Shown here: positions 33,541 to 45,959 of the stretch, piece after piece
Layout of the letters: every line of letters starts with the position of its first letter
How positions within the stretch are numbered: position 1 is the stretch's first letter
Assembly: GCA_902769875.1 (NCBI GenBank)
Contig: CACXQV010000037.1
Coordinates: 1 to 49,644, forward strand
Origin: an uncultured Bacteroidia bacterium
GTDB taxonomy: Bacteria; Bacteroidota; Bacteroidia; Bacteroidales; F082
DNA length: 49,644 nucleotides
Direction: 5' to 3'
Made by a program: the position numbers and the translations under genes
Notes under the pieces: generated by a model
Seen by the model: the letters and a program-made list of their open reading frames with translations, nothing else
The model's database searches: none
What the model was told of the DNA's origin: nothing

Positions 33541-35304
33541 TTAGTCTATCACATGCTGATAATACGTCCCTTCCTTGAAATTCTTGATACCGTCTTTCAG
33601 GAAGTTCACGAAGGCATCCTTGTCCAAATCGTAGGCGCGGGGCTTCATCAAGAGGTTGCCGTTGTGGTCCATCAGGCAGTAATACGGCTGGGCGTTGGTG
33701 CCGAACTTTGAGATTTGGAAATCGGCATACTTGCGCCCGATGGTCTTCTTTTCCTTGCCGTCGTAGGTGGAAGTATACCACTCGTTTTCAGGCAAAGAAG
33801 TCTTGTCGTCGACATACAAGGCGCAGAGCACAAAGTCATTGCGCAGCATATCCTTCACACGCGGGTCGCTCCACACGTTGGCTTCCATCTCGCGGCAGTT
33901 CACGCAACCGTGGCCAGTGAAGTCAACGAAAATGGGACGGTTCAAGGCTTTTGCGGCGGCAAGGGCTTGGTCGTAGTCGAAATAGCCTTTCAGGTTGTGT
34001 GGCAAATGGAAAAGGTCGGCATATTTGGGAGCTTCAGTAAATTCCACAGTTGCAGCAGCTTGACCTTGAGGAGCCACCGCCATCTTGGCCATCTTGGCAT
34101 CCACATAATCAATGACCTTCTCACTGTTCTCCTCGATAATCCTGTTCAAGTCGAAATCGAGGGTTTGCTTTGGCGGCAAATAACCCGAAAGGGCCTTCAA
34201 CGGAGCGCCCCACATACCGGGAATCATATAAACCACAAAGGTGAAGTCGATGATAATCAGCACCAAACGGAACACGCCCAACTCCTTGACTTCCTTCTCG
34301 CCCTTGAAGCGGATTTTGCCGAGGAGGTAAAGCCCGAGCAAAGCAAAGCAAACAATCCAAATGCCGAGATAGACCTCGCGGTCGAGCAGATGCCAGTGGT
34401 AGGTTTGGTCGGCCACGCTGAGGAACTTGAAGCCCAACGCGACTTCGACGAAACCCAAAACGACCTTCACCGAGTTGAGCCATCCGCCACTCTTTGGAAG
34501 GCTTTGCAGCAGGTTCGGGAAAAAGGCGAAAATGGCAAACGGCAGGGCAAAAGCCACGGCGAAAGCAAACATCGTCACGATGGGAGCCCAGAACTCGCCC
34601 GAAGTGGACTTGATAAGCACCGTGCCCACGATGGGACCCGTGCAGGCAAACGACACCAAAACGAGGGTCAATGCCATAAAGAAGATGCCGCCGAGGTTCT
34701 TGGTGCTTTGTTTGCTGTCGCTCTTGTTCACCATATTGCTGCCCAAAGTGATTTCGAAAGCGCCGAAGAACGAGGCCGCGAAAATCATAAACACCAAGAA
34801 GAACAGGATATTCGGCAGCCAGTGCGTCGCCAACCAGTTGAAAATGTCGGCAGTGACACTATTGCCACCCACAAGCCAAGTCACCAAGATGATGATAGCA
34901 ATAGGCAAAGTGTAGAGCAACACAATGAAAATGAAGTACATAAACGCCTTGAAACGTCCTTGTGCCTTGCTCTCGCCTTCGCCATGCATAAAGAACGACA
35001 CGGTCATGGGAATCATCGGGAAGACGCAAGGCGTGAGCAGTGCGGCAAAGCCCCAAAGGATGGCTTCGAGAATCATACCCCAAATGTTCGACTTGCCTCC
35101 AGCAGTTTTTTGGGGCTCAGCAGCCTCAATCACAGCAGGTTCAGAGCCGTACATCAGGTAGACATCCTCAGTCAGGGAGACGCATTGGCCGTCCTTGCAA
35201 GCCTGATAGGAAATCTCGCCAGTGATGGGGAAAGAGCCATCTTTCAGCTTACGGAAGGTCCGCAGAACCAGCGAATTGCTTGTATTCCGTCTCAAAGATG
35301 TCAT
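33541..35304 (-). CDS. dsbD: DsbD, main part after frameshift
   Basis: This frame holds most of a protein-disulfide reductase DsbD: the end of the alpha domain (SFPITGEISYQACKDGQCVSL), eight or so membrane helices with the essential CVFPMIPMTVSFFM, and a C-terminal thioredoxin domain with FTGHGCVNCREME. DsbD passes electrons from cytoplasmic thioredoxin to periplasmic proteins. The first homologous residues here (FRKLKDGSF) begin near 35262, while the upstream part of the protein is in another frame (35249-35590). The shift equals one extra base near 35260-35275. The 35304 start is only the nearest ATG and is not believed to be real. Either the gene is broken, or one base is an assembly error, or a programmed shift occurs. 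Confidence 0.8.
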   Translation of the reverse strand: MTSLRRNTSNSLVLRTFRKLKDGSFPITGEISYQACKDGQCVSLTEDVYLMYGSEPAVIEAAEPQKTAGGKSNIWGMILEAILWGFAALLTPCVFPMIPMTVSFFMHGEGESKAQGRFKAFMYFIFIVLLYTLPIAIIILVTWLVGGNSVTADIFNWLATHWLPNILFFLVFMIFAASFFGAFEITLGSNMVNKSDSKQSTKNLGGIFFMALTLVLVSFACTGPIVGTVLIKSTSGEFWAPIVTMFAFAVAFALPFAIFAFFPNLLQSLPKSGGWLNSVKVVLGFVEVALGFKFLSVADQTYHWHLLDREVYLGIWIVCFALLGLYLLGKIRFKGEKEVKELGVFRLVLIIIDFTFVVYMIPGMWGAPLKALSGYLPPKQTLDFDLNRIIEENSEKVIDYVDAKMAKMAVAPQGQAAATVEFTEAPKYADLFHLPHNLKGYFDYDQALAAAKALNRPIFVDFTGHGCVNCREMEANVWSDPRVKDMLRNDFVLCALYVDDKTSLPENEWYTSTYDGKEKKTIGRKYADFQISKFGTNAQPYYCLMDHNGNLLMKPRAYDLDKDAFVNFLKDGIKNFKEGTYYQHVID

Positions 35305-35624: not shown

Positions 35625-35954
35625 TCAATAGTTTTTTTCATTCCTATACAGCACTTTTCCTTCCCGTTCAATGCTTTCAACCAAATCTTTATTCTTAAGC
35701 ATTGAAAAAAGGCTCAAATCCACAAAATAAGGCAAATACAAATCGTCAATCTTGGCATCCAAAAGTGCCAATTGAAGATAGGTTAAGTTACTGCCTTTCA
35801 ATGTAATATCAATATCCGACGAAACTCGGTTTTTTCCCCTTGCACGTGAACCGTAGATAATGGCCTCTTCCACTTCAGGTACGGAAGCCAATACATCGCG
35901 CAACGCCTTAATTTCCTGATTCTTAAGTCCAAATTCCATCGGATTGTTCTCCAT
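35625..35954 (-). CDS. MNT-type minimal nucleotidyltransferase, no HEPN partner
   Basis: A 109-aa protein of the MNT family: EEAIIYGSRARGKNRVSSDI contains the GSxxxG and the DxD pair (SSDIDI), with VDLSLF as the third Asp. MNT proteins usually pair with a HEPN ribonuclease as antitoxin (MntA adds AMP to HepT). No HEPN gene is beside it: one side is dsbD, the other tilS. The start is ATG 35954, with an exact -7 element at 35973-35980. It may be an orphan antitoxin or act on another target. Confidence 0.78.
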   Translation of the reverse strand: MENNPMEFGLKNQEIKALRDVLASVPEVEEAIIYGSRARGKNRVSSDIDITLKGSNLTYLQLALLDAKIDDLYLPYFVDLSLFSMLKNKDLVESIEREGKVLYRNEKNY

Positions 35955-36006: not shown

Positions 36007-37335
36007 TTAGTCTTCAAGTCTGCAAACAAATACAGATTTTGTCCCGTTTGTGACCTTAAACCGGTCGTCAATGCGCTGCCCGACCACCCAAAGGATTTCA
36101 TTTTTGGCTGAAACCAACAAAAAGACATTCTGTTTTTGTGCTTCCGTAAACCTTTGATCCACAAAGAAATCGCTCAACAGTTTCGAGCCTTTCATGCCTA
36201 AAGGATAAAAGCGGTCACCATGCCGCCAATGGCGCAAAGTGAGCGGAAACTGGACTTTGTCGGCATCAAGCATGGCCACAATCGGCGACTTGTCAATGAC
36301 GAAATCGGAACTTTTTTCAATATGGGAAAAACGAAGATGAATTGGTGAAGCGATTTCCTCCTCCCCTACTTCAATTTGGATTTCCTCATCCACAACAGGC
36401 TTGATTTCAGAGAGTTGCAATTCATTTCTTCCAATCACCAATTGATGGGTTGGAGAGAAATATTTGTTCCCGATGCCCGTTTCCATCGCCTCAAAAATGA
36501 AATGGCATTGGTCGGTGTTGAAGCCGTATTGGCGAAGCCACTCAAACAGCAATTGGAATTCGGAATTCAGAATGTTGAATGCGGAATAGGGAACACTTTG
36601 GAGTCCACCATCTAGTTCAACAATTTGATTCAGTTTCCCCTTCAGTAATTCTCTATACAACTCATTCTCAGCAGAAAGATGTTCCAAAGATTTGTACAAA
36701 CCTTGTCGCGCCTCGGGATGAAGTTCGTCGAAAACGGGTAACAATTGGTTGCGGATTTTATTGCGCAAATACACGCTCTCGGCATTGGTATGGTCTTCGC
36801 GCCAAAGGATTTGGTTTTCAATGGCATACTGATGGATTTGCTCTCGCGAAGCCCAAAGCAAAGGACGAATAATCACACCATTTTTCGGTTGCATTCCCTT
36901 CAAGCCGCGCAATCCTGCACCGCGCAACAGATTGATGAAAAAGGTCTCGGCTTGGTCGTCGGCATGGTGCGCCACCGCGATTTTTTCGCAGTCTAATTGC
37001 TGTCGCAACTCTTCAAACCAAACATAGCGAAGGTCGCGGGCAGCCATTTCGATGGAAACACCTTTTTCTTCGGCATATTTCTCCGTTTCAAAATGCTTCA
37101 CAAAACATTGAACCCCATGCTTTTCCGCAAACTCGCGAACAAACTTTTCATCGCTATCGGATTCCTCGCTGCGTAGATGAAAATTGCAATGCGCCACAAC
37201 GAAATCCACCTTCGTTTTCAGCAGCAAGTCGGCCAGCACCATGGAATCGATGCCACCGCTGAGGGCTAAGACAGCCCTTTCATTTGGCTGAATTAGGTTG
37301 TGTTGAGTATTGTATTTTTGGAATCCTTCTAACAT
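36007..37335 (-). CDS. tilS: tRNA(Ile)-lysidine synthase TilS
   Basis: Attaches lysine to C34 of the tRNA(Ile) that reads AUA, using ATP; normally essential. The 442-aa product has the PP-loop LALSGGIDSMVL (SGGIDS at residues 26-31), HCNFHLRSEESDSDE, VAHHADDQAETFFINLLRGAGLRGL, and the C-terminal TilS domain (LRHWRHGDRFYPLGMKGSKLLSDFFVD). The start is ATG 37335, 2 bp after the hsdM stop. Its codons look more AT-rich than those of housekeeping genes elsewhere in the window. At the far end of the R-M operon (45280-45396) there is a fragment that resembles another tilS start. This copy may therefore have come in with the R-M cassette. Confidence 0.93.
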   Translation of the reverse strand: MLEGFQKYNTQHNLIQPNERAVLALSGGIDSMVLADLLLKTKVDFVVAHCNFHLRSEESDSDEKFVREFAEKHGVQCFVKHFETEKYAEEKGVSIEMAARDLRYVWFEELRQQLDCEKIAVAHHADDQAETFFINLLRGAGLRGLKGMQPKNGVIIRPLLWASREQIHQYAIENQILWREDHTNAESVYLRNKIRNQLLPVFDELHPEARQGLYKSLEHLSAENELYRELLKGKLNQIVELDGGLQSVPYSAFNILNSEFQLLFEWLRQYGFNTDQCHFIFEAMETGIGNKYFSPTHQLVIGRNELQLSEIKPVVDEEIQIEVGEEEIASPIHLRFSHIEKSSDFVIDKSPIVAMLDADKVQFPLTLRHWRHGDRFYPLGMKGSKLLSDFFVDQRFTEAQKQNVFLLVSAKNEILWVVGQRIDDRFKVTNGTKSVFVCRLED

Positions 37336-37337
37336 CC

Positions 37338-38921
37338 TCAAATCTCCTCCAGCCCCAACTCCTTCAAAAACACATTGAGTTTACCCTGTGCTTCCCCGAT
37401 TTTCGCATCCGTTTCATGCAGTTGCTTGGTAACGGTCTCAAGGTCAATCTGTTCTTCTTCTTTCGACAGGTTGACATAACGAGTGATGTTAAGGTTGTAG
37501 TCGTTTTCCTTGATTTCCGCCAATGAAACCAAGCGCGAAAAACGCGGTTCCTCTCTGCGGAATTGGTAAGTCTCCACAATCTTATCCACATCCTTGTCGC
37601 GAAGATAGTTCTGGCGTTTGCCTTTCTCGTAATGCTCCTCACCGCTGGCATTGATGAACAAAATTTTGTCGTTCTTGCGGCATTTCTTCAACACGAGGAT
37701 GCACACCGGAATGCCCGTGGAATAGAACAAATTGGCGGGAAGGCCAATGACGGTATCAATGTTGTCATCTTCAAGCAGTTTCTTGCGGATGACTTCCTCC
37801 TTACCGCCACGGAACAACACACCGTGAGGCAAAATGATGGCCATTGTGCCGTTGTCGCTCAAAAAGTGGAAGCCATGCAACAGGAATGCAAAATCAGCAG
37901 CGGACTTGGGGGCCACACCATAGCGACTGAAACGGAAGTCCTTGGCGGTTTCCTCCGTCGGGTCCCAACGCAGGCTGAAAGGTGGATTGGCGACTACTGC
38001 ATCAAACTGCATCTTCTTGGCGGGATTTTGCTCGTTGAGAATGTCCCAATCATTGGCAAGCGAATCGCCGTGGTGAATTTCAAACTCCGTGTCCTTCACG
38101 CCATGCAGCAGCATGTTCATTCGGGCAAGGTTGTAAGTAGTGATGTTCTTCTCTTGACCATAAATCTTGCCGATAGCATGGTCTTTCATTTCACGACGTA
38201 CATTCAGCAGCAACGAGCCCGAACCGCAAGCAAAATCCAGCACCTTGTCAATGCGCTTCTTTTTGCCTGTTGCGGGGTCTTGGCAGTCAAGGGTGACAAT
38301 GCGCGAAAGGATGGTAGAAATCATTTGCGGTGTGTAGAACTCACCGGCTTTCTGTCCTGAACCTGCCGCGAACTGACCTATCAAGTACTCGTATGCATCA
38401 CCCAAGGCATCGGAATCCGATGGGATTTCGGCAAGGCCGTCGGCGATGGTTTTGATGACTTTACATAAAAGTGCATTGCGCTCAGTATAGTTTTTGCCCA
38501 ACTTCTCCGAATTCAGGTTGATTTCGGAGAACAAACCCTTAAACGAACTTTCAAACGACTCGTTTTCAATGTATTTGAAACCATCTTGCAAGGTTTTAAG
38601 CAAATCATCGCTTTGCGTGCGGGCAAGTTCCACAATGTTATCCCAAAGGTATTGTGGCTCAATCACATAATGGATTTTGCGCCGCATTTGTCGTTCGAAC
38701 AACAGCGTATCGTTGGGATTTTCCTTATACCATACTTGCAAGGCTGTATAATCCGAGCCCAATTCTTTTTGTGCTGATGTTATATAGTTGTCCGACAGGT
38801 ATTTCCAGAAAAGGAACGACAGCATATAGTCGCGGAAATCGTCCGCCATCATCGCGCCGCGCAGGTTGTTGGCGATTGCCCAAAGGGTCTTGCCGAGTTC
38901 TTGTTGGTTATTATGTGTCAT
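37338..38921 (-). CDS. hsdM: Type I R-M methyltransferase subunit HsdM
   Basis: A 527-aa N6-adenine methylase. After the helical HsdM_N domain (GKTLWAIANNLRGAMMADDFRDYML) it has the SAM motif DFACGSGSLLLNV, and the catalytic NPPFS (residues about 310). GEFYTPQMIS is the usual marker of class I HsdM. It methylates adenine in the recognition site set by HsdS. The start is ATG 38921, 4 bp after the stop of the DUF1016 gene, and the stop is 2 bp from tilS. Confidence 0.94.
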   Translation of the reverse strand: MTHNNQQELGKTLWAIANNLRGAMMADDFRDYMLSFLFWKYLSDNYITSAQKELGSDYTALQVWYKENPNDTLLFERQMRRKIHYVIEPQYLWDNIVELARTQSDDLLKTLQDGFKYIENESFESSFKGLFSEINLNSEKLGKNYTERNALLCKVIKTIADGLAEIPSDSDALGDAYEYLIGQFAAGSGQKAGEFYTPQMISTILSRIVTLDCQDPATGKKKRIDKVLDFACGSGSLLLNVRREMKDHAIGKIYGQEKNITTYNLARMNMLLHGVKDTEFEIHHGDSLANDWDILNEQNPAKKMQFDAVVANPPFSLRWDPTEETAKDFRFSRYGVAPKSAADFAFLLHGFHFLSDNGTMAIILPHGVLFRGGKEEVIRKKLLEDDNIDTVIGLPANLFYSTGIPVCILVLKKCRKNDKILFINASGEEHYEKGKRQNYLRDKDVDKIVETYQFRREEPRFSRLVSLAEIKENDYNLNITRYVNLSKEEEQIDLETVTKQLHETDAKIGEAQGKLNVFLKELGLEEI

Positions 38922-38925
38922 TATG

Positions 38926-39993
38926 TTATTGATTGTCAATCTTGTTTTGCAGTCCTTTTTCAATTTCTTCTATTGTCGGAATAGTGCCTTCAACCTTTTT
39001 GGGATAAAGCCTTTCGAGTTCGTATTCAGAAATGCCAATAGGCTGTGTGCTGCCTTCGAGGGCATATTGCGCTATGGTATTGTCTTTCGATTTGCATATC
39101 AAAAGGCCTATTGTGGGGTTGTCGTCGGGGCGTTTTATGAGATGGTTGCAAGCCACAACGTATGTGCCCAATTGCCCGATGTCTCTTGGGGAAAACTTGT
39201 CAGTCTTGACCTCGACAACCACATAACAACGCAGTTGGAGATGGTAGAAAAGCAAGTCGATGAAGTTTTCTGTTTCGCCGATTTGCAACCTGTATTCCCT
39301 GCCGACGTATGCGAACCCCGTCCCCAATTCGATGAGGAAATCCGTGATGTTGCCCAGAAGCGCTTGTTTCAAAAGCGATTCGTTGTACTTGCCCCTGACT
39401 CCTGCAAATGCAAAATTGTAAGGATCTTTCGTCACCTCTTGCGCAAGGTCGCTGTCGGGCGCAGGCAGTGTGGAAGTGAAGTTGGTGAGGGCCTTGCCTT
39501 CGCGCTCGTAAAGTTCGGTGTCAATCCAATTGAGAAGCATCGTGCTGCTCCAACCGTTTTCCAGCGACTTGTTGACAAAGAACATTGCCTTGTCGGTGTC
39601 GTTTTTCACCTTGTCCATAATCAGGCAGTGGTGCCGCCACGGAATCCGGAAAACAGCGGAGGTTTCCAATTTTCCAACAGGCTGTTGGAAAATTTCAAAG
39701 TGCTGACGGTAAAGCAGATAGAACTTCTTGCAGTAGTATATGTTGCTTTTCGAGAGGCCTTCGATGCCGGGCATTTCGGTTTTCAGGTCTTGGCTGAGTT
39801 GCATAATTACGCTTTCGCCCCAACGCTCCTCCACGTGCATTTCTACAATGTCGCGCCCCAACAAGTAGTTGAAGAGCAGTTTTTCCGTGTTCACCTTCAC
39901 GGCCGCTCTCAGTTGGCTCTGACGGTAGCGTAGGGTCAGGTCTTTTACCCAATCCCTATAATCTTTATCAGTGATGACAATGCTCTTTCTCAT
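38926..39993 (-). CDS. DUF1016 PDDEXK-nuclease protein, copy between hsdS and hsdM
   Basis: A 355-aa protein: DUF1016_N domain at residues 10-170 (RQSQLRAAVKVNTEKLLFNYLLGRDI, LSKSNIYYCKKFYLLY, FRIPWRHHCLIMDKV), then a PD-(D/E)xK domain (GTGFAYVGREYRLQIGETENFIDLLFYH, YVVVEVKTDKFSPRDIGQL, TIGLLICKSKD). The catalytic residues would be the Asp of FIDLLFYH and EVK. It is 20 bp after hsdS and 4 bp before hsdM, so it is part of the R-M operon. DUF1016 genes near type I R-M loci are known, but their role is not. Confidence 0.88.
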   Translation of the reverse strand: MRKSIVITDKDYRDWVKDLTLRYRQSQLRAAVKVNTEKLLFNYLLGRDIVEMHVEERWGESVIMQLSQDLKTEMPGIEGLSKSNIYYCKKFYLLYRQHFEIFQQPVGKLETSAVFRIPWRHHCLIMDKVKNDTDKAMFFVNKSLENGWSSTMLLNWIDTELYEREGKALTNFTSTLPAPDSDLAQEVTKDPYNFAFAGVRGKYNESLLKQALLGNITDFLIELGTGFAYVGREYRLQIGETENFIDLLFYHLQLRCYVVVEVKTDKFSPRDIGQLGTYVVACNHLIKRPDDNPTIGLLICKSKDNTIAQYALEGSTQPIGISEYELERLYPKKVEGTIPTIEEIEKGLQNKIDNQ

Positions 39994-40012
39994 TTTTCAA
40001 GTCAGTTAGTTA

Positions 40013-41254
40013 TTATTGTGGAAACATCCGTTGCATCAATCCTTTTTTGTATTGCCCCAACAGGCCGACCTTCTCCGTGTAGGCATTGATTTGGTCGTCC
40101 ATCGTGGAAAGACACGAGGCGATTTTGCGCTGTTCGGGAAGAGAGGGAATAAAAACTGATATTTCTTCTATTGTTGATTTTTTTACTGCTGGAACAACAC
40201 CGCCTGCATATTTAGCCAAATCAATTAGCGACATAAGATAATACAGAAAATCATCGCATAACAAATTTTGTTCTGCTTTAACACCTGCTACATTATTATC
40301 AATCATACATTGTTTCGCTGTAATAACACGCCTATTTAACCGTATCGCTTCCCCAATCTTTGCAAAAACAACGGTTCCTTTTTGCAAAGGCTTGGCTTTT
40401 AATTCTTTAATGTCATCATCGTCCACATAATTTGCAGATTCATTTATATATTTTCGACCTTTATTTGTGATAGTCGAAATATCACCTACCTTGATAAATG
40501 GATATTTACCTTCTCCTTTCCCCTGCATTTTTTCAGGGAATCCATAACCTTGAAAAACAATTGCAACCTCTCCCAATTTCTTTTCCTCCCATTCTTTTTC
40601 GTTTCTAAACTCTGGAAATCTTAATTTTTGAATTTGTAAATCATTGATAATCAGCGATTTATACCCCATTGGATTCGCGAACAATTGCTGCATCAAGCCT
40701 TTCTTGTATGCTTTCAGTTGTTCGAGTTTCTCATTGGTGGCGGCAAGCATTTCATCTAACGCAGACAGGCAGGCCGCTATGCGACGCTGCTCGATAATAT
40801 TCTTTGGATAATAAACACTTTTCTCTTTTAGTTCTGAAAAATGCCGTTTATATTCACTTGAAATTATAGGAACAAATTGTAAGTATTGATACACATACTT
40901 ATTATCCCATTGATTGGAATCTTTTGATTTAATAATTTTTATTCCATCCGCTCCTTGAATAAATGGGAAATCAACTATTTTCAAAATGCACGTATGATCA
41001 CCAAAAACTATCAAATCTTCACTTGTCCTATTAACTAAAGCATCAACATCGTTTGAATAACCGCAAATATAGTTTTGTGATTGGTCTATTATCGGATAAT
41101 TTCCAGATTTTTGATAATCAATTGATTGTAATTTCTTTGGGGGCGTTATTGTTTGCATAATCTCTCCCAATCTTTTCACTTCCCATTCCCCATCATTTGC
41201 GAAATCGGGGAAGCGGAGGGCGGGGATGTGGTTATGTGTTAGTTTGTCGGGCAT
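40013..41254 (-). CDS. hsdS: Type I R-M specificity subunit HsdS
   Basis: A 413-aa protein with two target-recognition domains, each starting with LRFP(D/E)F and EW(E)xKRLGE/KKLGE and ending in a conserved helix: AACLSALDEMLAATNEKLEQL and ASCLSTMDDQINAYTEKVGLL. YKKGLMQQLF and YKKGLMQRMF close the two halves. Both recognition domains are strongly AT-rich compared with flanking genes, as expected for exchangeable parts. It directs HsdM and HsdR to a two-part DNA site. I see no inverted repeats or recombinase that would point to phase variation. Confidence 0.93.
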   Translation of the reverse strand: MPDKLTHNHIPALRFPDFANDGEWEVKRLGEIMQTITPPKKLQSIDYQKSGNYPIIDQSQNYICGYSNDVDALVNRTSEDLIVFGDHTCILKIVDFPFIQGADGIKIIKSKDSNQWDNKYVYQYLQFVPIISSEYKRHFSELKEKSVYYPKNIIEQRRIAACLSALDEMLAATNEKLEQLKAYKKGLMQQLFANPMGYKSLIINDLQIQKLRFPEFRNEKEWEEKKLGEVAIVFQGYGFPEKMQGKGEGKYPFIKVGDISTITNKGRKYINESANYVDDDDIKELKAKPLQKGTVVFAKIGEAIRLNRRVITAKQCMIDNNVAGVKAEQNLLCDDFLYYLMSLIDLAKYAGGVVPAVKKSTIEEISVFIPSLPEQRKIASCLSTMDDQINAYTEKVGLLGQYKKGLMQRMFPQ

Positions 41255-41256
41255 AA

Positions 41257-42264
41257 TTATTCTATTTTTCGGATATTGCCACTAATCAACCGCTTCAATT
41301 CTTCTTCGGTGGGCATATACAATTTGTATTGTGAGGCAAAGAGTTGTCGGCTTTCGGCCAGCATGGAATACTGCACCACCGTTTCATCATTTTGTGAACA
41401 GAGTATGATGCCAATGGTGGGATTGTCGGTATCGGTGCGCTTCTGTTTCTCATAAAGCCTCACGTACAAGTCCATCTGTCCCACATCCTGCGGCGTAAGC
41501 GTACCTATCTTCAAGTCTATCAGCACAAAGCATTTGAGCAGATAGTTGTAGAACACCAAATCAATGTAATAGTGTTTTCCCGCCTCGGTGGTGATGCGTT
41601 GCTGGCGTGCCACAAACGAAAATCCTTTGCCCAATTCGAGCAGGAAATCCTGTAGGCGGTTGATCAAAGCCGATTCCAAATCAACCTCCAAATAATCTTT
41701 GTTTTCTTTCAGGTCAAGAAATTCAAGGATATAAGGGTCTTTCAGAATTTCAGACGGTGAAATCGGTGTATTGTTGTTCTCTGTCTCATGTTTTACGATG
41801 TCTTTGTTCTGGCTGGCAAGCAACCGTTGATAGTAGAAAGAATTGATTTGCCGCTCCAACTGCCTTACACTCCACGCACATTCAACAGCCTCTTTCAAAT
41901 AAAATGTTCTTGCATCCTCGTTTTCAACACGCATCAATAGTCGGTAATGCGACCAACTTAATTCACTACACAGTGTGTAGCGAATTGGAAAAGCAAGATA
42001 AAACTGCCTGAAATTCCGCAAGTTGGGTACACTAAATCCTTTTCCAAAATCTAAAGTCAACTCTTTCGCAAGATTTTCGATAAGGTATTTCCCATATTCA
42101 GCACGGTTGCTGCCGTTTTGCTCCTCTTCCACAATGCGACGACCTATCTCCCAATAAGTAATGACCATCGCCGTGTTCACACTGCGCACTACATGCTGCC
42201 GCGCCTCGTTAATCAAGGCTTTGATGTCGCTAATGAAATCTCTGTTTTCAACTATATCTGCCAT
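41257..42264 (-). CDS. DUF1016 PDDEXK-nuclease protein, copy between hsdR and hsdS
   Basis: A 335-aa protein related to, but clearly different from, the copy at 38926. The DUF1016_N domain (VNTAMVITYWEIGRRIVEEEQ, FSVPNLRNFRQFYLAFP, LSWSHYRLLMRV) is followed by a PD-(D/E)xK domain (GKGFSFVARQQRI, HYYIDLVFYNYLLKCFVLID, LKIGTLTPQDVGQMDLYVR, TIGIILCSQND). The stop is 2 bp from the hsdS start. It may guard, load or replace a nuclease step of the R-M complex; nothing in the sequence decides this. Confidence 0.88.
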   Translation of the reverse strand: MADIVENRDFISDIKALINEARQHVVRSVNTAMVITYWEIGRRIVEEEQNGSNRAEYGKYLIENLAKELTLDFGKGFSVPNLRNFRQFYLAFPIRYTLCSELSWSHYRLLMRVENEDARTFYLKEAVECAWSVRQLERQINSFYYQRLLASQNKDIVKHETENNNTPISPSEILKDPYILEFLDLKENKDYLEVDLESALINRLQDFLLELGKGFSFVARQQRITTEAGKHYYIDLVFYNYLLKCFVLIDLKIGTLTPQDVGQMDLYVRLYEKQKRTDTDNPTIGIILCSQNDETVVQYSMLAESRQLFASQYKLYMPTEEELKRLISGNIRKIE

Positions 42265-42299
42265 TTATCAGTATTTTTATCGGTAATTATATCGGTATT

Positions 42300-45290
42300 T
42301 TATTCCTCATACGCCTTCAATCCCGAAATCTCTTGCCCAGGTACCAAGCGTTTCAGCAACGGCACAAGGTCATTCATCAGTTCGGTCTCTTTCCGGGTGC
42401 GGTCGCGCCAACCCAAATCAAGGGGTTCAAGCAAGTCGTTCAATTTTTCGCCATCGAAAATCTTGCGATCTACAATGTCGTCCACAAAAGCCTGCAACGA
42501 GGCCACACTCAAACCATGTTTTTCAGCAATGGCCATCAACTCTTTGGCATATTTCTCCGTTTTGAAGACCTCGTATCCTTCCTTGATTTCGTGCTGCGTG
42601 CGGCCGTTCACGCCATCGAGACTGTCAATGTAGGCGATAATGTCTTCACGGTCATCAAGCAGATTGGCACTCGAACGAATCAAGTTGACCAATTCCTCTT
42701 TGGTCATCTTCCACTTGGCTGGCTGACCCATGCACTTGGAAATCAATTCCATGATATAGTCGTAGTCGATCATGGCCGAGGCGAACAAGACAAACTCAAA
42801 ATCGAGTTCCTCTACCTCATTCGGGACAGCGGTACCAGTTTTCTCTCGTCTCGTTTTCAGTTCGCGGGCAATGTCAAGATACGCCCCACGGAAGGCACGC
42901 AAATCATCCTCCGTAAAACCATAAGGGGCTTGTGCCTCTGCCGCAACAATTGGAGCGTTCTCATCCTCAATTTCCACGAGGTCAGTATATTGGTCGAGTT
43001 GTGTTTTGAGTCGCTGCACTTCCTTAAAGCATACGATGAAACCCGCTTTGGCATCATCACCTTTCAGATTGAACACATCCTCCGCCTTGAAATCAAGATG
43101 GTGGCGCGTCATGAAATCACGCAAACCATTCACCGCATCAAGATATTTCTTCTTGATGACCGAAGCAGGTTCCACCAACCAAATTTGTCTTGCTTCTTCC
43201 TTCTTCTCCCCAGAGAACAAAGCGATGGCGGTATCCACAGCATCCTGTTGTCCTCGGAAATCAAGGATATTGCCGTAAGGCTTGCTGTCGTTTAGGATAC
43301 GGTTGGTACGCGAAAAAGCCTGCACCAAACCGTGGTATTTCAAGTTTTTGTCCACATAAAGCGTGTTCAGATACTTGGAATCGAAGCCCGTCAACAGCAT
43401 ATCCACTACAATCGTAATGTCTATTTTGTTCTTGTGGGCATAGTCCTTATTACTATATTGCTGGTTCTTGATACGCTGCTGCACATCCTGATAATAGGCA
43501 TCAAACTCGGCCACAGAATGGTTGGTGCCAAACTGTTTGTTGTAATCATCAATGATGGTCATCAACGCGGCCTTTTTCTTGTCAGGTTCTTGCTCGTTGT
43601 CTTTTTGCTCTTGTGGCAAGTCCTCTTGAATCTGTTGGATGTCACGATTACCCTCGGCGGGCGGCGAGAACACGCAAGCAATGTTCAAAGGCTCGTATGT
43701 ATTATCCATCTCTAACTTTTGGGCCTGCATCTCCTTGAACAGATGATAATACTCGATAGCCTCATTGATGGAACCCGTAGCAAGGATGGCGTTGAAACGC
43801 CCGTCGGCGGTGGCTGCACGATGCTTGCCCAAAATGGTACGCACAACCGCCGATTTCTTCACTGTTTCGCCCGCCATGTCTGACTTTTCGGGCTTGAAGT
43901 AATCCACATGGAAACGCAACACATTCCTATCTTCAATGGCATTAGTAATAGTGTAGGCGTGCAGTTCCTTCTGAAAGACATCTTTTGTGGTTTTGTATTT
44001 GGCCTCTTCGCCCGTGATTTGGGTGTAAGTGGCGTTTTCCTCAAAGATGGGTGTCCCCGTGAAGCCAAACAACTGGGCTTTCGGGAAAAACTCCTTAATG
44101 GCCTTATGGTTGTCGCCGAATTGAGAACGATGGCACTCATCGAAGATAAACACCACCCGTTTGTCTCTCAACGGTTTGAGCCTTTCTAAATAGTTACGAC
44201 GATTTTGCGGGTCAAGAGCAATGCCCAATTTTTGAATGGTAGTTACGATAATTTTATCAGCATAATCCTCGGAAAGCATACGGCGGACAAGGGCATCTGT
44301 ATTAGTGTTCTCCTCCACGCAACCCTCTTGGAACTTGTTGAATTCCTCGCGGGTTTGCTTATCGAGGTCTTTGCGGTCCACCACAAAGAGGCATTTCTCA
44401 ATTTCAGGATTGTCTTTCAATAGCGTTGAAGCCTTGAACGAGGTGAGTGTTTTTCCGCTACCCGTAGTATGCCAAATGTAGCCGTTGCCACGGTTCTCGT
44501 TGATGCAACTGACAATCGCCTTCACCGCATAAATCTGATACGGACGCATCATCAACACCTTACGTTCACAAGCCACCAAAACCATATAACGACTAATCAT
44601 CTCACCCAAACGGCACTTTTGCAAAAAAGCATCAGAGAAAGCCTCCAACTCCGTTATTTTCTCATTTTTCTCGTTAGCCCAACGATACACAGGCAAATAC
44701 TTCTCTTCAGCATTGAAATTGAAATGCTCTTTGTTATTGTTGGCGAAATAATAGGTATTATACTGATTGCTAACAATGAACATTTGCATGAAGCACAGCA
44801 GGGAATTGGTGTAACCATTGCCGACATCATTTTTGTAGTCCACAATCTGCTGCATGGCACGGCGCGGACTAACATCCAAGGTCTTCAACTCAATCTGCAC
44901 CACAGGCAAACCGTTAATAAGCAGAATCACATCATACCGTTGAAAACTGTTTCGCGTATTCATGCGCAACTGGTGAATCACCTCGTAATCATTTTTGCAC
45001 CAATCCTTGATGTTCACCAACATATATTGCAATGGCGTTCCATCTTCTCGCATGAAAGTGTTGCGCTCTCGCAACCGCTTCGAAGCATTGAACACATCCG
45101 AATCCGTGATTTCCTCCAACAAACGGGCAAACTCATTATCAGTCAAATGACAACGATTCAAGGCTTGAAACTTCTCACGGAAATTCCGCTCTAATGTAAT
45201 GCGATCGTTGATGTCAGGGCGAAATACGTATTTCAGATTCTCGCTTAAATATCGGATAAACTGTTCTTCTATTTGTTTTTCAAGTGCCAT
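42300..45290 (-). CDS. hsdR: Type I R-M restriction subunit HsdR
   Basis: A 996-aa restriction and translocation subunit. The N-terminal HSDR_N nuclease domain carries RYDVILLINGLPVVQIELKT (the PD-(D/E)xK core). The SF2 motor has Walker A WHTTGSGKTLTSFKAS, FVVDRKDLDKQ, the DEAD-like FDECHRSQFG, LFGFTGTPIFEEN, DMLLTGFDSKYLNTLYVDK and QAFSRTNRI. A helical C-terminal domain follows. The start is ATG 45290 (MALEKQIEEQFIRYL); ATG 45299 is possible. It is the first gene of the operon; its promoter (45312-45319) lies inside the putative tilS remnant. Confidence 0.93.
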   Translation of the reverse strand: MALEKQIEEQFIRYLSENLKYVFRPDINDRITLERNFREKFQALNRCHLTDNEFARLLEEITDSDVFNASKRLRERNTFMREDGTPLQYMLVNIKDWCKNDYEVIHQLRMNTRNSFQRYDVILLINGLPVVQIELKTLDVSPRRAMQQIVDYKNDVGNGYTNSLLCFMQMFIVSNQYNTYYFANNNKEHFNFNAEEKYLPVYRWANEKNEKITELEAFSDAFLQKCRLGEMISRYMVLVACERKVLMMRPYQIYAVKAIVSCINENRGNGYIWHTTGSGKTLTSFKASTLLKDNPEIEKCLFVVDRKDLDKQTREEFNKFQEGCVEENTNTDALVRRMLSEDYADKIIVTTIQKLGIALDPQNRRNYLERLKPLRDKRVVFIFDECHRSQFGDNHKAIKEFFPKAQLFGFTGTPIFEENATYTQITGEEAKYKTTKDVFQKELHAYTITNAIEDRNVLRFHVDYFKPEKSDMAGETVKKSAVVRTILGKHRAATADGRFNAILATGSINEAIEYYHLFKEMQAQKLEMDNTYEPLNIACVFSPPAEGNRDIQQIQEDLPQEQKDNEQEPDKKKAALMTIIDDYNKQFGTNHSVAEFDAYYQDVQQRIKNQQYSNKDYAHKNKIDITIVVDMLLTGFDSKYLNTLYVDKNLKYHGLVQAFSRTNRILNDSKPYGNILDFRGQQDAVDTAIALFSGEKKEEARQIWLVEPASVIKKKYLDAVNGLRDFMTRHHLDFKAEDVFNLKGDDAKAGFIVCFKEVQRLKTQLDQYTDLVEIEDENAPIVAAEAQAPYGFTEDDLRAFRGAYLDIARELKTRREKTGTAVPNEVEELDFEFVLFASAMIDYDYIMELISKCMGQPAKWKMTKEELVNLIRSSANLLDDREDIIAYIDSLDGVNGRTQHEIKEGYEVFKTEKYAKELMAIAEKHGLSVASLQAFVDDIVDRKIFDGEKLNDLLEPLDLGWRDRTRKETELMNDLVPLLKRLVPGQEISGLKAYEE

Positions 45291-45396
45291 TATTACCATA
45301 TTGTGAAAGTGCAAAAATACAAAAAATCCTTTCGTCGCCCTCGGCGATGAGGTTACACCTATTAATATATGCCTTGAATTGGTCAAGCATGGTCAT
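45280..45396 (-). pseudogene. tilS: Putative 5' remnant of a native tilS
   Basis: A 38-codon frame, MTMLDQFKAYINRCNLIAEG then DERIFCIFALS. Compared with the intact TilS (MLEGFQKYNTQHNLIQPNER), the spacing and residues M-L-x-x-F-x-x-Y-...-N-L-I-...-E-R agree, and the general TilS start (F..YI...NL....D.ILLAVSGG) fits even better. Its ATG overlaps the flavin reductase stop as ATGA, so the native gene seems to have been translationally coupled to that gene. Homology is lost after about 45328, where the AT-rich hsdR promoter begins. The identification rests on about 20 codons and is an inference. Confidence 0.55.
45312..45319 (-). promoter_or_regulatory. -7 element of the hsdR operon
   Basis: TATTTTTG on the minus strand, 21 nt before ATG 45290. 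It is the only good promoter seen for hsdR-DUF1016-hsdS-DUF1016-hsdM-tilS, so restriction, modification and tilS may be expressed together. Confidence 0.68.
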
Positions 45397-45959
45397 TTCT
45401 TTTTCTTCACCGAAAAACCAAAGCCGCCGATTTTCTCGCCGAGGCCGTAGTACTTGCCGTGAGAATAGGCCAAAGGCTTGGCGTGATTGAGTTGGAACGC
45501 GCCTGTACCCTTGTCGATGAGTTTTTCCTCCGCATTGACGGCCACCACCTCGGCGATGAACATATCGTGCGAGCCTAATTCCTTCACCTCCACCACCTTG
45601 CACTCGATGCTCAACGGCGATTCGGCTATCAAAGGGGCTTTCACGATTTGGGCAGGCTCGGTGTGCAAGTGCATCTGCTTGAACTTATTGTAGTCGCGGC
45701 CTGAGCGCACACCACACCAGTCCGTGGCAGCGGCCAAGTCCTCCGTCGTCAGGTTGATGACAAACTCCTTGTTTTTTATGATGAGGTTATGCGAATGGCG
45801 TTCCTTGCGGACGGAGATGTAGCACATGGGCGGGTCGGAACAAATCGTTCCCGTCCAGCCGATGGTGATGATATTGTAGTTTTCCTCGCAATCGCCGCAG
45901 GTGACCATCACGGCGGGCAAGGGATAAATCAATGTTCCGGGTTTGAAGGGGATTTTCAT
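45393..45959 (-). CDS. Flavin reductase-like FMN-binding protein
   Basis: A 188-aa split-barrel flavoprotein of the flavin reductase/flavoredoxin family: YPLPAVMVTCGD, NIITIGWTGTICSDPPMCYISVRKERHSH, EFVINLTTEDLA and SPLSIECKVVEV are the usual positions around FMN. It may use or supply reduced flavin in the cytoplasm. Its stop overlaps the ATG of the tilS-like remnant. It is 9 bp after the membrane-protein gene and likely shares its message. Confidence 0.88.
   Translation of the reverse strand: MKIPFKPGTLIYPLPAVMVTCGDCEENYNIITIGWTGTICSDPPMCYISVRKERHSHNLIIKNKEFVINLTTEDLAAATDWCGVRSGRDYNKFKQMHLHTEPAQIVKAPLIAESPLSIECKVVEVKELGSHDMFIAEVVAVNAEEKLIDKGTGAFQLNHAKPLAYSHGKYYGLGEKIGGFGFSVKKKK

Follow-up and report, generated by a model that had tools for sequence, protein, structure and literature searches.

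The window, by which we mean the whole stretch of 49,644 nucleotides analysed here (contig C37 of a fragmented assembly: 138 contigs, completeness 82.6%, contamination 5.7%), carries on its minus strand, in reading order, a flavin reductase-like gene (FR), a 38-codon frame, hsdR, a DUF1016 gene, hsdS, a second DUF1016 gene, hsdM, tilS, an MntA-like gene and a gene that we take to be dsbD. The parts of the locus are the following:

45393 to 45959, minus strand: FR, flavin reductase-like protein, ancestral upstream partner of tilS (Pfam Flavin_Reduct, 117.8 bits)
45331 to 45390, minus strand: scar, codons 1 to 19–20 of the former resident tilS (MLDQFKAYINRCNLIAEGD), assigned by DNA match to the tilS starts of relatives
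45304 to 45327, minus strand: promoter-like stretch of hsdR, including TATTTTTG, a motif that recurs in many genomes of the genus
42300 to 45290, minus strand: hsdR, type I restriction subunit (TIGR00348, 393 bits against a cut-off of 284.6)
41257 to 42264, minus strand: first DUF1016 / YhcG PDDEXK nuclease-like gene (Pfam; PADLOC PDC-S02)
40013 to 41254, minus strand: hsdS, specificity subunit (Pfam Methylase_S, in two stretches; PADLOC Specificity_I)
38926 to 39993, minus strand: second DUF1016 / YhcG PDDEXK nuclease-like gene (Pfam)
37338 to 38921, minus strand: hsdM, type I methylase (TIGR00497, 395 bits against a cut-off of 242.8)
37276 to 37335, minus strand: putative replacement tilS 5' end, hereafter B, codons 1 to 20 (MLEGFQKYNTQHNLIQPNER), possibly up to codon 26 (37258)
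36007 to 37275, minus strand: tilS body, running from a point just ahead of the P-loop to the stop codon, assigned to a within-genus allele (TIGR02432, 193.7 bits against a cut-off of 93.6)
35625 to 35954, minus strand: MntA/Polbeta-like nucleotidyltransferase gene (Pfam Polbeta, 54.1 bits)

The type I restriction-modification (R-M) set is complete, the R, M and S subunits being encoded together in a single cluster (Pfam, PADLOC and NCBIfam). HsdR shows the domains HSDR_N, SWI2/SNF2 and EcoR124_C, and HsdS reaches 100.1 bits for Methylase_S in Pfam (cut-off 22) but only 23.4 bits, far under the cut-off of 662, for the one NCBIfam model listed. The system has in common with known type I systems a complete hsdR, hsdM and hsdS as well as DUF1016 genes within the operon, which PADLOC scores as PDC-S02; a copy of the second DUF1016 gene in the cassette of another genome of the genus (G018) is 95% identical. 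As the initial annotation had stated, the operon ends 2 bp before an intact tilS: the hsdM stop TGA lies at 37338–37340 and the tilS ATG at 37333–37335, with GG in between. On the far side of tilS, the MntA-like gene, which many of the relatives likewise have 3' of tilS, scores 39 bits with the NCBIfam MntA model, under the cut-off of 60. Further on, the presumed dsbD is frameshifted near 35.27 kb (within 35200–35300), while in the eight relatives examined a long frame stays open at this place, in one of them up to the end of the contig; the frameshift is a genuine mutation or else an error of the assembly.

The remnant behind the flavin reductase gene

The 38-codon frame (45280–45396), whose start overlaps the stop of FR (ATGA), reads MTMLDQFKAYINRCNLIAEGDERIFCIFALSQYGNNGT. 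Within it, tilS proper begins at the second ATG (45390), as in relatives, in which the sequence 3' of FR starts with TGACCATGCTCGACCAG. When positions 45285–45396 were searched against the DNA of 99 genomes of the genus, including that of the window, matches were obtained in 67, i.e., in 66 others. For 36 of these 66 (36 of the 98 others), the match spans the remnant and falls on a listed tilS start, the best being those of G461 (94% over 62 nt, E 7.7e-21), G468 (92%) and G012 (92%). In the remaining 30 genomes, the match is confined to the promoter-like part, which starts at query position 58 and recurs throughout these genomes. By these matches, the frame is, far beyond chance, a real tilS 5' end, as the initial annotation had read it from the window alone. 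Its further claim that the likeness to tilS decays where the hsdR promoter begins holds as well, with tilS similarity stopping at about 45335–45331 and the promoter-like sequence starting at about 45327. The promoter consensus of Bacteroidetes is TAnnTTTG; scans for sigma-70 promoters and terminators gave chance-level results only.

The closest relative of the scar is nearly a matter of single nucleotides: G461 is ahead of G468 by about 1 nt over 62 nt, and L130, a locus apparently on the same contig as G468:C22, is ahead of G461 by 1 nt over the first 57. Because these are near-tied, the scar is not attributable to the allele to which the tilS body belongs. The DNA of tilS codons 7–11 (CATATATTAATAGG) is nearly unchanged across much of the main clade, a conservation that perhaps exceeds the need of the protein.

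The ancestral gene order and its variants

In 35 other genomes of the genus, of which 32 have both genes, FR and tilS lie on one contig within about 2.5 kb in 29 of the 32, and in 7 genomes they abut via the same 5-nt joint that links FR and the scar. The two genes are on separate contigs in three genomes (G001, G006 and G014), and a close copy of one or both is missing in 3 of the 35 (G002, G007 and G013). Outside the family, none of 24 genomes has FR and tilS within 5 kb. Those relatives that bear names are Bacteroidales of rumen and gut, bacterium F082 (L080) being one of them. The ancestral order postulated by the initial annotation is thereby recovered: FR and tilS are an ancestral pair, side by side and probably in one operon. 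Its proposed check, to look for FR followed directly by tilS in relatives lacking R-M genes there, has an answer in G461, in which FR abuts tilS, without R-M genes at this place and with an ordinary tilS start.

To describe variation at this joint, a census was made in which each distinct FR 3' end is represented by a single locus, provided that tilS is downstream of FR in the DNA examined; 46 of 80 named FR loci have no tilS in that DNA, all of them with an FR at most 85% identical and some of them stopping soon after FR. The census holds 61 distinct junctions including the window. FR and tilS abut in 14 of the 60 others, are separated by a gene of about 1.5 kb in 18 (L143, L246, L070, L083 and others) and by about 1 kb in 4 (L082, L016, L018 and L021, with an insert of 1.0 kb), show short gaps or altered starts in 8, and are 0.6–2.5 kb apart in 16 that have a more distant FR. 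The inserts that were translated (4 of the 18 and 3 of the 4) resemble, judged by eye, secreted, thioredoxin-like proteins. With inserts at so many junctions, the FR–tilS joint therefore often accepts DNA.

Some loci are altered in other ways. Two genomes, G003 (bacterium F082, L080; locus L152) and G030 (L151), have an extra copy, located between two insert genes, in which tilS codons 1–22 continue in frame into FR, at about FR codon 29; the two fusions are probably one shared event. A subgroup of loci (L075, L017, L078, L020, L255, L019, L082, L016, L018 and L021) has short or mutually unlike TilS starts, e.g., MKELSGKLILALSGG, and locus L154 (G014:C261) shows three flavin reductase pieces in succession, one of them containing stops.

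Body and first codons of tilS

The initial annotation had proposed that the cassette carried an AT-rich tilS of its own, and had suggested composition and a TilS tree as checks. The contrast in GC content that it had noticed is real within the window (0.453 for tilS vs 0.532 for FR), but it is much the same in relatives: their tilS genes (n = 38) have a mean GC of 0.460 (sd 0.014) and a mean GC3 of 0.511 (sd 0.030), against a GC3 of 0.498 for the tilS of the window. A foreign origin of tilS based on GC or GC3 was thus rejected, the values being normal among the 38 relatives. In a quick tree computed from the P-loop on, with 58 of the 61 census rows (L016, L018 and L021 were omitted, their reading having begun out of place), the tilS of the window is sister to that of G461 (SH-aLRT 99), then to L070 (97), within the main clade. 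The two sister genes are 96% identical over 420 columns, and the proteins 93% over their whole length. Judged from tree and identity, the body of tilS is an allele from within the genus whose sister is found in G461, and only the first 20–26 codons clearly do not belong to it.

Compared with G461, 36/78 nt are identical over codons 1–26, against 1194/1248 over all codons after 26. The change is abrupt, with 29/30 nt in codons 27–36 and 50/60 nt in codons 37–56, the successive blocks after the break giving 29/30, 26/30, 24/30, 68/72, 194/210, 291/300, 296/300 and 266/276. Because codons 21–26 resemble those of other residents (14/18 nt with G464, L146 or L076), the break is placed between codons 20 and 26. 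Since the G003/G030 fusions also broke near codon 22, the stretch before the P-loop has broken at least twice and tolerates replacement.

Upstream of the break, B is a genuine TilS N-terminus, to judge from its score as such, reached by 0 of 2000 shuffles and 0 of 2500 control peptides; it retains M1, F5, Y8 and L14, residues that are invariant or nearly so in 24 TilS proteins (window included). Its origin was searched for at several levels. A DNA search (E <= 0.001) gave no tilS match to B in the 98 other genomes of the genus; a 38-nt match within the genus was rejected, being antisense and in an unrelated gene. The matches listed from an order-wide DNA search were short ones at chance level, besides the window itself and a match to the tilS body of G033, and those listed from a protein search were ordinary TilS only. 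Among 64 distinct N-termini, the best partner of B is L134 by substitution score (9/20 aa) and L031 by nucleotides (38/60 nt), both deep-branching, while the highest plain amino acid identity is found with the main-clade L273 (10/20 aa, but 28/60 nt).

Neither of the two joints was found whole in another genome of the genus, and the hsdM–tilS joint is absent from the viral contigs searched. Among the repeats listed (20 direct families out of 35, and 25 inverted pairs out of 27), no large one pairs the two joints; the hexamer GAAAGG is present at both.

As for the product, TilS (tRNA(Ile2) lysidine synthetase) is normally essential, and the chimeric protein looks functional on several predictive grounds. 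It is full length, with both domains over their cut-offs (TIGR02432, 193.7 vs 93.6 bits; TIGR02433, 29.5 vs 20.2 bits; PF01171, 181.8 vs 27; PF11734, 33.5 vs 22), it keeps the conserved residues named above, and its six best solved folds are TilS (3a2k, 1wy5, 2e21, 2e89, 1ni5). The AlphaFold2 model (mean pLDDT 81) has an N-terminal helix at residues 2–12, with a pLDDT of about 91 for residues 1–10; its pTM is only 0.45, so that the domain arrangement is uncertain. It would differ from other TilS proteins in that a different tilS provided its first 20–26 residues. The same assembly contains a further TilS (L177, G000:C119:5-139), which, being partial, differently built and at a contig end, was set aside as probable contamination; we take it to be Prevotella-like. 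Divergence of tilS is also a subject of the H. pylori study PMC3120642.

The nearest relative is not constant along the region. In 120-bp windows compared with nine relatives, the block from tilS to the MntA-like gene is mostly nearest to G461 or G470, the latter gene lying in the same G461/G470-like tract as tilS, while FR is nearest to G464, G466, G018 or G470, and dsbD agrees in its 5' part at 99–100% with G464; G461 itself is 89–100% identical to the window in tilS and 83–91% in FR. The relatives nearest in FR (G464, G466, G018 and G463) have a tilS only about 69–88% like that of the window in DNA. Because they carry a less similar tilS than G461 does, an exchange of the body occurred at some time. 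Over 20 kb tested on 16 genomes, G461 is 70–78% like the window, while G018, G466, G464 and G463 reach 82–87% in the first block, the other blocks varying more. Gene by gene, the nearest relative changes along the region (28 relatives); exchange within the genus is therefore common and not attributable to the R-M event. Given its discordance with the flanks, the tilS body may nevertheless have come in with the R-M operon.

The R-M operon and its proposed entry into the locus

Of the 98 other genomes of the genus, 10 have an HsdR with at least 85% identity, and among these 10 flanks of at least 500 bp are common to only two groups. Two other conserved genes, W27 and W24, flank the R-M genes in G018, G463 and G468; tilS is undisturbed and about 8 kb away in G018 and G468, and on a different contig in G463. 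G025 and G453 have another site in common. Among the other five, no upstream flank of 500 bp is common, the downstream comparison having been made without G485 and G031. As these sites indicate, the operon moves within the genus, occupying several chromosomal places. A TilS-like start or B-like peptide follows hsdM in none of the 12 genus cassettes with a 3' flank (within 600 bp; 443 in one), so that we reject the idea of a cassette that always brings along a portable tilS 5' end. Likewise, no TilS or B-like peptide stands beside hsdM at the 16 HsdM loci obtained order-wide (393 genomes, E <= 1e-150; flanks up to about 1.5 kb). A donor with the R-M genes directly upstream of a B-like tilS was thus not found among these 16 loci and 12 cassettes, nor is an R-M operon splitting tilS described in the titles and abstract openings among the literature matches listed.

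The explanation that we favour, with somewhat better than even confidence, is that an R-M operon already joined to the first codons of another tilS entered the resident gene, by a homologous joint near the P-loop and an illegitimate joint on the FR side. The ancestor would have had FR and tilS adjacent, probably in a single operon. A type I R-M operon of about 8 kb, in which hsdM was already linked to the first codons of the tilS of another lineage, would then have entered the locus in a single event. On the tilS side, homologous recombination just before or in the conserved P-loop codons (codons 20–26) would have left the gene intact; on the FR side, an illegitimate joint would have cut the resident tilS after codon 19–20 and left its start behind FR as the scar. 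Lying 2 bp 3' of hsdM, tilS would now probably be transcribed and translated with the R-M operon, and loss of the operon would take away both the tilS start and its likely promoter.

Integration with one-sided homology has been described in several bacteria, the accompanying deletion being generally about the size of the insert (PMC3240628). Such homology-facilitated illegitimate recombination, in which one joint is homologous and the other has at most a few bases in common (PMC3240628), may resemble the present case; the break near the P-loop would fit the homologous joint. The present case differs in that no comparable deletion is seen, at most a few codons seeming lost in the one genome from which the event is reconstructed. 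Also counting against the favoured reading are the lack of a matching donor among the loci and cassettes searched, the discordance of the tilS body with its flanks, the near-tie over the closest relative of the scar and the conflicting rankings of the N-termini nearest to B.

The most serious competitor, to which we give perhaps a quarter of our belief, holds that the incoming DNA comprised the R-M operon and a whole G461-like tilS from within the genus (perhaps with the MntA-like gene), replacing the resident tilS except for its first 19–20 codons. It would account for the tract from tilS to the MntA-like gene being nearest to G461/G470 while FR and the 5' part of dsbD are nearest to others, and for G461 standing at 70–78% over the 20 kb where G018, G466, G464 and G463 reach 82–87% in the first block. 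Yet it leaves unexplained why the first 20–26 codons are foreign to the G461 allele (36/78 vs 1194/1248), and an independent exchange of tilS would be just as likely, since neighbouring genes differ in their nearest relative; moreover, G461 has no R-M genes at tilS.

An assembly chimera, in which reads of two strains were joined at the hsdM–tilS boundary or at an identical 24-nt stretch of the P-loop, strikes us as unlikely. The assembly does consist of 138 contigs, at 82.6% completeness and 5.7% contamination, with at least one foreign-looking contig (C119), and the failure to find either joint whole in other genomes of the genus, or the hsdM–tilS joint in viral contigs, is what such an artefact would give. 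But the joints stand at both ends of a complete operon, and B keeps the conserved TilS residues in frame, which a random join would not create.

We attach very little weight to a site-specific element that targets tilS and restores it with a portable 5' end: GAAAGG at both joints and the repeated rewriting or breaking of the tilS start in the genus would suit it, but the matches listed for the five R-M operon genes (Pfam, PADLOC and NCBIfam) include no recombinase family, the same R-M genes lack such a 5' end in the 12 cassettes, and joining the hexamers gives, as read from the sequences, one codon more than in relatives. Nobusato and colleagues, whose paper of 2000 is among the references of PMC3031569, reportedly described R-M mobility by insertion with long target duplication. 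Here too R-M genes lie among other genes with sequence of the target gene at both ends, which is what invites the comparison, but the two starts, only 27/57 nt alike, are not copies of one another, and the unselected scar is the conserved one while the copy in use is divergent, the reverse of the prediction, so that this last explanation is already contradicted and hardly credible.

Returning to entry by one homologous and one illegitimate joint, the R-M operon would be tied to an essential gene because tilS follows hsdM and probably needs its transcript. That the island would thereby be hard to lose had been proposed from the window alone; in sum, what the initial annotation observed stands, and its interpretation is supported in part. 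A broader and rather improbable generalization, offered as speculation, would make the FR–tilS joint a hot spot at which DNA repeatedly enters and rewrites a dispensable TilS N-terminal tip before the P-loop, a defence operon thereby holding an essential gene hostage, so that its own deletion would be lethal to the cell.

R-M systems are commonly regarded as mobile units that persist through addiction. The present one is an ordinary type I system in an unusual place, remarkable only for its position 2 bp ahead of a gene that is normally essential and to which it seems to have given a start. What makes the locus valuable is that its joints can be read and that the breakpoint recurs. From the scar, the joints and the relatives without the interruption, a possible route emerges by which an operon may bind itself to an essential gene, namely by lending that gene a start. 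Within the genus, the tip of TilS ahead of the P-loop varies, which would make this site unusually tolerant, and the locus thus offers a testable case of an essential gene captured by an operon.
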